Origin: Methanosarcina barkeri str. Wiesmoor
Lineage (GTDB): Archaea; Halobacteriota; Methanosarcinia; Methanosarcinales; Methanosarcinaceae
Assembly (NCBI RefSeq): GCF_000969985.1
Contig: NZ_CP009526.1
Span: forward strand, 62,001-126,000
Direction of reading: 5' to 3'
Length of the DNA stretch: 64,000 nucleotides
This document shows, in pieces, positions 57,784 to 61,100 of the stretch; positions within the stretch are counted from its first letter, which is position 1; every line of letters begins with the position of its first letter. The notes under the pieces are model-generated. The model was not told where the DNA came from and ran no database searches. It saw nothing but the letters and a program-made list of their open reading frames with translations. The position numbers and the translations under genes were made by a program.

Positions 57784-58704
57784 TTACTTTAATCCGTTGT
57801 CAAAATAATCCGTGTCAATCTTTTTAACATCGTAAGACTTTACTTTTGAAACTCCCACATCATACTCAATCATTAGTCTTGCAAGCGTTTCTCCATCAAT
57901 CAACACAATGTTCCCTGTGAAATTGGCATATTCAATAGCTTCTCTTGAAAAAGTAGAGGTTGTTATAAAGACTCCTTTCTTTGCTTTCTTTCCTATCAGA
58001 GCGCCTGCAAATTTCTGGATTTCAGGTCTTGGGACGGTACCTTCCCAGCGTTTTGCCTGAATATAAATTACATCAAGTCCAAGCCTATCTTCCTTTATGA
58101 TTCCATCGATCCCACCATCATGACTTCTACCAACTGCTTTTCCTGCATCTGCTCTTGAGCCTCCATATCCTATTTTTATCAAAATATCAACAACGAGTGA
58201 TTCAAAGAAGCTGGCTGAACATTTTTTTATGATAGAGAGAACTTCTGAAACGAGTTCGTTGTGCAGCTCCTGATATGCGATTTCAAGGAACTCTTCAGGA
58301 TCTAGGTCTTTTTTCCTTTCTATTTCTGGAATTTCTGATTTATCGATTAAAGTAGACTTGTCCCTGTTATAAAAAGCATTAAATTCTTTATATCGTTTCA
58401 AAAAATTAACATCAATAGACGCAGGATTTTCTTTAAGGACATACAGTCCTCTCTTGGTAATGGAAAAATATCCTTTTCTTCCAGAATCAAGCAAGCCAGC
58501 TTTTTTCAGGTAAGTACATGCCCATCCAATTCGGTTATTAAATACAGCTTGCTGGCCACTTGGCAAAAGTTCTCTTCTTTCTTCTTCGCTTAATCTTAAC
58601 TCTTCTGCAAGAAGCTCAATAGCATTGCGAATTTTATGCTCTTCTCCATCTCCTGCATATTTAAGCAAAGGAAGCATTAAGGATTGATAATCTGGAACTG
58701 CCAT
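57784..58704 (-). CDS. mrr: Mrr-family restriction endonuclease
   Basis: Mrr proteins are type IV enzymes that cut modified DNA. The N-terminal domain (about 1-95, PDYQSLMLPLLKYAGDGEEH) is the Mrr_N winged-helix domain. The C-terminal nuclease domain (about 160-290) has the PD-(D/E)xK variant: GRSHDGGIDGII with Asp200 and IYIQAKRW with Gln216 and Lys218. The QAK form is typical of Mrr. ATG 58704 follows gagtgat and gives 306 residues; a TTG at 58716 is the alternative. No partner methylase is found next to it, in line with a type IV enzyme. The divergent neighbour is a membrane protein. Confidence 0.9.
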   Translation of the reverse strand: MAVPDYQSLMLPLLKYAGDGEEHKIRNAIELLAEELRLSEEERRELLPSGQQAVFNNRIGWACTYLKKAGLLDSGRKGYFSITKRGLYVLKENPASIDVNFLKRYKEFNAFYNRDKSTLIDKSEIPEIERKKDLDPEEFLEIAYQELHNELVSEVLSIIKKCSASFFESLVVDILIKIGYGGSRADAGKAVGRSHDGGIDGIIKEDRLGLDVIYIQAKRWEGTVPRPEIQKFAGALIGKKAKKGVFITTSTFSREAIEYANFTGNIVLIDGETLARLMIEYDVGVSKVKSYDVKKIDTDYFDNGLK

Positions 58705-58891
58705 TAGATCACTCAAAATATGTTAGTCCTACTTAGAACTTTGAGTATGTATCTTTTTATAGTTTATCATTTTGTATCTGTTCACGTAATCTTGATTCTA
58801 TTTCAAAAATTACTACTCCTCAAAGATCACTTTCCAGTAAAACCTCACAAAATCCAAACCTTTATACCTTTTCCTTTCCCAAAAACTTCTC

Positions 58892-59995
58892 ATGTCCTCT
58901 TCAGGCATCCCTCTTCCTCTCAAAACGGAACATTCTATTAAAGATCGCCTCTACTGGAACTTCTTAAACGTGATACCTTTCCTGATCGGTTCAATTGGGA
59001 TTGCCAGAGATTCGCTCAAATGGGTAGCGGTTTACATAGGAATAGCCCTTTTTTTCTTCTTGGTTATCGAATTCAGGTTCGCATGTACTCACTGCTTTTA
59101 CTATATCCGGAGTAAAGGCTACGTAAAGTGTATGATGCTTTCTGGAGTACCAAAAATTTTTAAAGATCGTCCCGGATCTCACAGCCCTTTTGAAAAGATT
59201 ATTACTGTTCTTGGGGCTTTGTCCGTGTTTCTTTTTCCGGTCTACTGGCTTATCAGTGACCCTCTGCTTCTGGGAGCTTATATTGTTGCATGGGTACTGT
59301 TTTTTCTGACAGTCCATCGATATGAATGTGTAAGATGCATTAATTTTGAGTGTCCTATGAATCGGGTGCCAGCTGAAATGGTAAAAAATTTTAAAAAGAG
59401 AGGTGACCTATCAGATAACTTTGATCTTTCTGGAAATGAATTTCAGGTATCAGGGTCAAACAGATGTGCTTCCCTTAAAATAAAACATGAATTCAAGGAC
59501 TTTCTCTACTGGTACTTCGTAACCTTGGTTCTTCTATTTTCGGCGGGACTTGCAATTGGTATTTACTCAACAGGGTGGGTACTTGTCTATCTTTTCTTAG
59601 TTTTATTTCACTTTTATGTCCTGGAACAGCGTTTTTTCTGCACCCATTGTCCTTACTATACAATGAGTGAGAAAAAAGTGAGATGCATGATGAATTGGGG
59701 TTGGCCGAAGCATTTCAGATCCAGGCCGTATCCTCTAGGAAAATTCGATCTTGCCGTTACTACTCTTGGGTCCCTGGTCGTTCTTCTCTTTCCTGTTTCC
59801 TGGCTTTTGAAAGAACCGTTTCTATTGGGTACTTACCTGGTTTCTATTTCGATTTTCTTGCTAACGATATGGAGGTATGAGTGCTGTCGCTGTATCTATT
59901 TTGGATGTCCTTTTAACAGAGTTTCGGCTGAAGTGAGGATGAAATTTGAGGAGGAAAGAGAGTTGAGTGCGAGTTTGGAGAAGATTAAATTGTGA
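58892..59995 (+). CDS. internally duplicated Cys-rich eight-helix membrane protein
   Basis: The 367-residue protein consists of two copies of a unit of about 150 residues (about 13-165 and 193-350). Each has a start like IKDRLYWNFL/FKDFLYWYFV and about four membrane helices. Both also carry the cysteine pattern CTHCxYY, KCMM or RCMM, then RYECxRCIxFxCPxNRVxAE, six cysteines per unit. The pattern suggests two metal or iron-sulfur sites at the membrane surface, or redox chemistry; I do not recognise the family. No signal peptide is seen. The ribosome binding site is weak and the N-terminal start uncertain. It is divergent from mrr and followed by a tandem repeat. Confidence 0.75.
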   Translation: MSSSGIPLPLKTEHSIKDRLYWNFLNVIPFLIGSIGIARDSLKWVAVYIGIALFFFLVIEFRFACTHCFYYIRSKGYVKCMMLSGVPKIFKDRPGSHSPFEKIITVLGALSVFLFPVYWLISDPLLLGAYIVAWVLFFLTVHRYECVRCINFECPMNRVPAEMVKNFKKRGDLSDNFDLSGNEFQVSGSNRCASLKIKHEFKDFLYWYFVTLVLLFSAGLAIGIYSTGWVLVYLFLVLFHFYVLEQRFFCTHCPYYTMSEKKVRCMMNWGWPKHFRSRPYPLGKFDLAVTTLGSLVVLLFPVSWLLKEPFLLGTYLVSISIFLLTIWRYECCRCIYFGCPFNRVSAEVRMKFEEERELSASLEKIKL

Positions 59996-60008
59996 GTTTG
60001 AGGAAGGT

Positions 60009-60093
60009 CAGAGAAAGTTAGAGGAAGTTAGAGGAAGTTAGAGGAAGTTAGAGGAAGTTAGGGGAAGTTAGAGGAAGTTAGAGGAAGTTAGAG
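60009..60093. repeat. 10-bp tandem repeat after the Cys-rich membrane gene
   Basis: agaggaagtt is repeated about eight times, with one agaggaagtt to aggggaagtt change. It starts about 14 bases after the stop codon. Confidence 0.9.
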
Positions 60094-60188: not shown

Positions 60189-61100
60189 TTAATAATAATG
60201 GATTTTTGCTAGATTTCTCCTGATAGCGCGTCTGTACTTTACTGCGGGGTATCCGAAAATGACCACTATTCCCGGTTGGTTTCGGATATTGATTCCGTAC
60301 TTTTCTTTCACTTCTTTGCCCCCACTTTTCAGCATTGGGCCAATGGTTCCTATCATACAGCTTCCAAGGTTCAGGGCTTCGGCGGCAATCATTGCATAGG
60401 TGGCTGTGATAAAAGGATCTGCTGGATCAGCATAAGGAGAAACATGGAAGTACATAGCAAGGGGTGCTCCGTAGAGCAGGTAATCAGTATTTTCTTTTCT
60501 ATATTCTTCAAAGATTTCAATCGCCGGATACACGAATTTGTCAATAACTTCATATTCTTCCTTCTTCATGAAAGGTCGCATCAGGAGAAGTACGGGTTTC
60601 GAAAATATCCATTTCTGGCTTTTTATAAGCTTTAACATGTCATCGGAAAATTCCCTTACTTTTTCTTTTCCGTTTATAACCAGGACCTCAACATCCGAAG
60701 GTGGAATCCCCATGGGTGCCGTGCTTGCTGCTGCCAGGATTCGGTCTATTTTTTCCTTTTCAACTTCTCTGTCTTCAAATTCCCGGATGCTGCGCCTGGA
60801 AAGCATGAGAGCCATAAGTTCTTCGTATCCGGCTCGGGACTCTTCTGCTGGGAGATATATGGACGAAGTCTGGGATATGTCTCTCCCTTCTACCGCAATG
60901 GCTCCTGTTGGACAAACTGCAACACAATGCCCGCAGCCGATGCAGCCAAAATAGCGGGTTTGGTCGATCCTTACTTTGTCGTTTTCAAGGTAGATAGGGG
61001 CTCCTTTGCAGACTTTAACACAGAGGCCGCAAGTCTTACACTTCTCATAATCGATCCTGACAGTTGCGGTTTCAGAGTACCTGGCTGTAGGGATGGCCAT
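60189..61100 (-). CDS. ferredoxin-nitroreductase fusion protein
   Basis: The 303-residue protein has an N-terminal domain with two 4Fe-4S sites: CKTCGLCVKVC (from Cys21) and CIGCGHCVAVCPTG (from about 52). A nitroreductase-fold flavin domain follows (from about 95), with SRRSIREFEDREV, STAPMGIPPSDVEV and the C-terminal GSCMIGTIGPML and VVIFGYP segments. Such proteins pass electrons from ferredoxin to FMN and then to an unknown acceptor. The physiological substrate cannot be predicted. It has no operon partner. A TATA-like minus-strand tract (61118-61126) lies just upstream, so the message may be nearly leaderless. Confidence 0.88.
   Translation of the reverse strand: MAIPTARYSETATVRIDYEKCKTCGLCVKVCKGAPIYLENDKVRIDQTRYFGCIGCGHCVAVCPTGAIAVEGRDISQTSSIYLPAEESRAGYEELMALMLSRRSIREFEDREVEKEKIDRILAAASTAPMGIPPSDVEVLVINGKEKVREFSDDMLKLIKSQKWIFSKPVLLLMRPFMKKEEYEVIDKFVYPAIEIFEEYRKENTDYLLYGAPLAMYFHVSPYADPADPFITATYAMIAAEALNLGSCMIGTIGPMLKSGGKEVKEKYGINIRNQPGIVVIFGYPAVKYRRAIRRNLAKIHYY

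Follow-up and report, generated by a model that had tools for sequence, protein, structure and literature searches.

The gene at positions 58892-59995 of the window (the whole stretch of 64,000 nucleotides of Methanosarcina barkeri str. Wiesmoor that was analysed) encodes a membrane protein of 367 residues composed of two tandem copies of the same unit, each with four predicted transmembrane (TM) helices and six cysteines in a fixed order. Judged from sequence, this unit represents a real, conserved, large and as yet unnamed archaeal family, and its cysteine signature appears both stronger and far wider than a single sequence could have revealed. Our preferred interpretation, which is held with moderate confidence, is that each unit is a four-helix bundle with a cytosolic metal-thiolate site, which would then occur twice in the fused protein. 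The family is widespread and strictly conserved and has no Pfam or NCBIfam entry; once it is recognised, what looked peculiar to one genus can be treated as a family with a well-defined signature. The features of the gene are listed here, with the evidence for each in brackets:

58892-59995, + strand: whole gene, two four-TM six-cysteine units fused in tandem (alignment of the halves, cysteine positions, conservation)
58919-59413, + strand: unit 1, residues 10-174 (alignment of the halves; homologous to separate genes of the sister genus)
59084-59131, + strand: first cysteine triplet of unit 1, C65-x2-C68-x11-C80, after TM2 (alignment of the halves, conservation in Methanosarcina)
59327-59353, + strand: second triplet of unit 1, C146-x2-C149-x4-C154 then Pro, after TM4 (alignment of the halves, conservation in Methanosarcina)
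59414-59473, + strand: linker between the units, of low conservation, carrying the variable C192 (sequence comparison)
59474-59968, + strand: unit 2, residues 195-359 (alignment of the halves, AlphaFold2 model)
59639-59686, + strand: first triplet of unit 2, C250-x2-C253-x11-C265 (AlphaFold2 model, conservation)
59882-59908, + strand: second triplet of unit 2, C331-x2-C334-x4-C339 then Pro, with C332 as an extra, variable cysteine (model, conservation)

The gene is present in a single copy in the genome, and its start agrees with those of its orthologues. The dN/dS values against the Methanosarcina orthologues, 0.11-0.27, indicate that the product is a protein under purifying selection. The gene is flanked upstream by a divergent gene for an Mrr-type endonuclease (57784-58716) and downstream by a convergent gene for a ferredoxin-nitroreductase (60189-61100). 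Rfam gave no match for the locus, and promoter-like and terminator-like sites there are not above chance. A 10-base unit, AGTTAGAGGA, is repeated 9.8 times at 59995-60093, starting at the stop codon of the gene.

The initial annotation had described two tandem units, each with about four membrane helices and the same six-cysteine pattern. Indeed, a gapless alignment of the two halves spans 165 residues (47% identity, E=4e-53), both contain C-x2-C-x11-C and C-x2-C-x4-C-P at matching relative positions, and AlphaFold2 gives four helices per unit. The strict retention of the cysteines also held: all 12 ordered cysteines (residues 65, 68, 80, 146, 149 and 154, and 250, 253, 265, 331, 334 and 339) are invariant in nine Methanosarcina sequences, the window protein among them. 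The non-motif cysteines 192 and 332 vary across the same nine. However, the accompanying claim that the helices had drifted while the cysteines were held has to be abandoned, since the halves are identical at 40 of 86 helix positions (47%) and at 38 of 79 other positions (48%), which amounts to no extra drift.

The origin of the two-unit protein can be read from its relatives. Separate genes for the two units, side by side and in the same order, are found in several genomes of the sister genus and in Methanosarcina sp. KYL-1; each encodes about 175-190 residues. Genus g12 has one unit only, which is 48-49% identical to unit 2. In a tree of the units, all copies of unit 1 form one clade and all copies of unit 2 another (98/96 and 97/96), and the fused forms are nested within unit 2 in a 100/100 clade. 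This topology indicates that the gene was duplicated first and that the pair was fused later; most simply, the fusion would have happened once. Unit 1 alone is kept in a few genomes (G032, G171, G181 and G035). Some Methanosarcina (G040, G055 and others) lack the gene, so the genus can do without it. At L147:7259-8278, two one-unit genes that belong to different subfamilies also stand in tandem, separated by 6 bp; the pairing of units has thus probably arisen more than once.

A search for one-unit homologues, proposed in the initial annotation, found such genes in the sister genus, in genus g12 and in the wider phylum. With a profile of the unit, one-unit proteins of about 225-240 residues were found elsewhere in the class and phylum, and further profile rounds extended the family to 76 of the 393 sampled genomes (about a fifth) and to 33 of the 136 genera of the phylum. 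The family pattern is [2 TM]-CxxC-x(3-11)-C-[2 TM]-CxxC-x(3-6)-C, with motifs that range from CSHCPYYA...C / CxRCVNFSCP to CVDCYYYGKxC / CKYCKQREIGC. The window protein has the features that define membership, namely four TM helices, of which TM2 and TM4 are each followed by a CxxC-x(n)-C triplet, and a proline in TM3. In a set whose most distant members share 21% identity with the window unit, the six cysteines and this proline are the only invariant columns. All six cysteines are present in 98 of 102 non-redundant domains; among the four exceptions, one has Phe in place of Cys, one has an undetermined base in its sequence, and the remaining two have been cut short, probably by a frameshift. 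The initial annotation would have been contradicted by homologues in which the cysteines are not conserved, and they are instead kept at about 20-25% identity. In profile-profile comparisons, the Methanosarcina units (group A1) matched group A7 at 99.9% (E=1.4e-34) and group A6 at 96% (E=1.1e-9), and groups A7 and A6 matched each other at 90.5%. The histidine of the CTHC motif is kept in the nearer groups, whereas other groups have Lys, Asp, Arg or Asn at this position; it is therefore not a ligand common to the family. An extra cysteine within the first triplet (x8) occurs in many Methanosarcina units; it is absent from the window protein and is not conserved outside the Methanosarcina units.

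The view that the protein lies outside any known family was supported by Pfam, NCBIfam and PDB sequence searches, which gave nothing above cut-off for the window protein. For the other family members, matches were scattered and weak, with none reaching a printed Pfam or NCBIfam cut-off, and those tested against PDB chains had no sequence match at a meaningful E-value. PHROGs gave no match for the window unit, and one remote member matched a PHROGs family without function (4e-5). Searches of plasmids, phages and viral contigs found no relatives, and literature searches found nothing on this cysteine-rich membrane family. One candidate was DUF4395 (PF14340), also a small polytopic membrane protein, to which two members of different subfamilies matched weakly (E=0.37 and 0.0022); this identity was rejected, as the window protein has no match and a remote member reaches 11.5 bits against a cut-off of 24.5. 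A second point of comparison is DUF116 (arCOG02078), uncharacterised archaeal Cys-rich membrane proteins which resemble the present family in having six conserved cysteines and a predicted metal-binding function (PMC5898192). However, DUF116 has two N-terminal TM helices followed by a soluble CxxCxxC domain, and the window protein has no match to it in Pfam.

A confident AlphaFold2 model was obtained for unit 2 alone (pLDDT 92.2, pTM 0.83, 48 sequences), as the initial annotation had advised for a single unit. The model has helices at 10-34, 36-57, 93-114 and 118-140; a short helix comes after CTHC, and the C-terminal helix spans 155-175. TM2 is followed by the first cysteine triplet and TM4 by the second, an arrangement that in the model brings both to one end of the bundle. 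The full-length prediction was poor (pLDDT 61, 25 rows) and shows only that the same helices occur in both halves. Lysines and arginines number 29 in the cysteine-bearing segments and 2 in the segments on the opposite side; by the positive-inside rule, the cysteines are therefore predicted to be cytosolic, with the reservation that the outer turns are very short. With the unit model, Foldseek gave no match in PDB or BFVD (best E about 5), and VIA-align on Foldseek's 20 top chains reached a best Z of 2.9, a result which does not prove that the fold is new.

Each unit may in turn have arisen by an old duplication, because its first and second hairpins align to each other in register, CxxC on CxxC (hhalign, 59-91% in three alignments and 2% in a small fourth one). 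The alignments only hint at such an ancient duplication of a two-helix hairpin, as membrane helices inflate hhalign scores of this kind.

These observations can be combined into a mechanism. The window protein would be a tandem fusion of two copies of the four-helix membrane unit of the unnamed family, with the six cysteines of each unit gathered at a single end of the bundle, on the side that is rich in positive charge and presumably cytosolic. We infer one metal-thiolate site per unit because the six cysteines are equally conserved and, in these anaerobes, presumably cytosolic, with one half-site at the end of TM2 and the other at the end of TM4. The six thiolates most probably hold a metal, with zinc as the first choice and an Fe-S cluster as the second; zinc is named first because the CTHC histidine is no general ligand and because of the spacing of the Cys6 half-sites. 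With zinc, each unit might contain either a Cys6 site for two metals or a Cys4 site that leaves two thiols free. Such a site would hold TM2 against TM4, with a metal-thiolate surface facing the cytosol, and the window protein would have two such sites, one per unit. Candidate roles for the predicted site are a structural clamp, a metal sensor and a dock for a partner. Counting against it are the spacing after CxxC, which at x3 to x11 is loose for one fixed site, the lack of a match to any known metal-site family, the weakness of the internal-repeat signal, absent in one alignment, and the poor quality of the full-length model. Overall, the metal-site reading is likely but unproven. Single-unit members are small enough for structural work, and Methanosarcina is a genus with established genetics; since it carries the protein, metal content and phenotype are directly testable.

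A precedent for the number of ligands is the fungal Gal4-type Zn2Cys6 cluster (PF00172), in which six cysteines, likewise arranged as two CxxC-x(n)-C half-sites, bind two zinc ions. Its half-sites have x6 spacing, and C-x2-C-x6-C occurs in both half-sites of 19 of the 102 domains of the family. However, a Zn2Cys6 cluster has C-x2-C-x6-C-x(5-12)-C-x2-C-x(6-8)-C within one short soluble domain, whereas here, in a membrane protein, the half-sites are separated by two TM helices and about 65 residues. The window protein, with C-x2-C-x11-C, 65 residues and C-x2-C-x4-C, has no PF00172 match, and PF00172 appears in two remote members only at chance level (E=0.32). As the triplets are two helices apart and the matches are at chance level, the likeness is one of ligand count, not of kinship.

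Another possibility, which seems unlikely, is that each unit uses four of its six cysteines to bind a [4Fe-4S] cluster, through which electrons would pass at the cytosolic face, for instance to or from a soluble ferredoxin-type partner. Fe-S proteins are abundant in methanogens, and the second motif closes with CP, a feature of many Fe-S motifs. However, the six cysteines per unit are equally conserved where four are usual, and C-x2-C-x4-C differs from the C-x2-C-x2-C-x3-C of the bacterial-type ferredoxins (C-x2-C-x2-C-x3-C-P, Fer4). The latter identity was accordingly rejected: no Fer4 or other ferredoxin-type Pfam or NCBIfam match is found in the window protein, whereas many Fer4 matches are found in the convergent nitroreductase gene. 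This neighbour could itself be taken to favour an Fe-S role, but only 3 of the 13 Methanosarcina-group loci that were compared retain it, and no signature of a quinone, haem or other redox protein was seen. A role in thiol-disulfide redox is also considered unlikely. In this case, metal-free CxxC pairs would cycle between thiol and disulfide, as in the four-helix membrane oxidoreductases of the DsbB/VKOR type, which have four TM helices and a CxxC near the membrane face, an arrangement that the unit shares. The catalytic cysteines of these enzymes are on the outer side of the membrane, whereas the charge rule predicts those of the window protein to lie inside; there are three conserved cysteines per half-site rather than two; and DsbB/VKOR has no Pfam match in the window protein and is absent from the Foldseek and VIA-align matches, although this absence is not decisive. 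Disulfides are unlikely in the reducing cytosol of an anaerobe. Thus, of the initial suggestion of metal or Fe-S binding or a redox role, metal binding at the membrane stands as the best inference, while an Fe-S or redox role found no direct support.

A further proposal concerns the role of the protein rather than its chemistry and would be compatible with a metal site. In some lineages, the protein might be a membrane-bound accessory of nucleic-acid repair or the stress response, acting as a metal-thiolate sensor or anchor with base-repair enzymes. Remote members occur in same-strand runs with genes for an OGG-type glycosylase, Cdd1 and O6-methylguanine methyltransferase, and the window gene is divergent from the Mrr-type endonuclease gene. 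However, this association was found after the fact and in remote subfamilies only, most relatives have no such neighbours, the Mrr neighbour is not constant in Methanosarcina (7 loci) and the other neighbours there reflect local synteny, so that we give this role little credence. The most far-reaching combination is a new doubled-hairpin membrane fold with a cytosolic six-cysteine two-metal or Fe-S site, found in methanogens and related archaea, fused into a two-site protein in Methanosarcina and serving elsewhere as a repair-linked membrane sensor of thiol-reactive or alkylating stress. It is doubtful in this full form.

In Methanosarcina, HtpX-, thymidylate-synthase- and AroA-like genes (so named from their sequences) lie to one side of the gene, and its surroundings reflect shared local synteny only. 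ABC-transporter and radical-SAM genes are its neighbours in several species; this lead was not retained, as they stand a few hundred bases away and are absent from other species. The neighbours of the remote relatives may be regarded as leads to function. OGG-type glycosylase and Cdd1 helix-hairpin-helix genes form tight same-strand runs with relatives at L143:6714-8468, L144:6865-8547 and L187:3266-4948, and the glycosylase gene alone is in such a run with a remote relative at L188:2526-3949. Genes for O6-methylguanine-DNA methyltransferase overlap or abut relatives at L205:3187-4270 and L209:3207-3833 (gaps of -4 and 0 bp). Genes of the cysteine-rich DUF3795 family adjoin relatives at L202:3460-4468 and L207:1562-2640. 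A reading frame of 568 residues at L216:2493-4196 joins an AI-2E-like permease (name read from sequence) to a C-terminal unit. Finally, a cation-efflux (CDF) gene is back to back with a relative, 18 bp away, at L074:5737-7793, and another CDF gene is found near a relative at L067.
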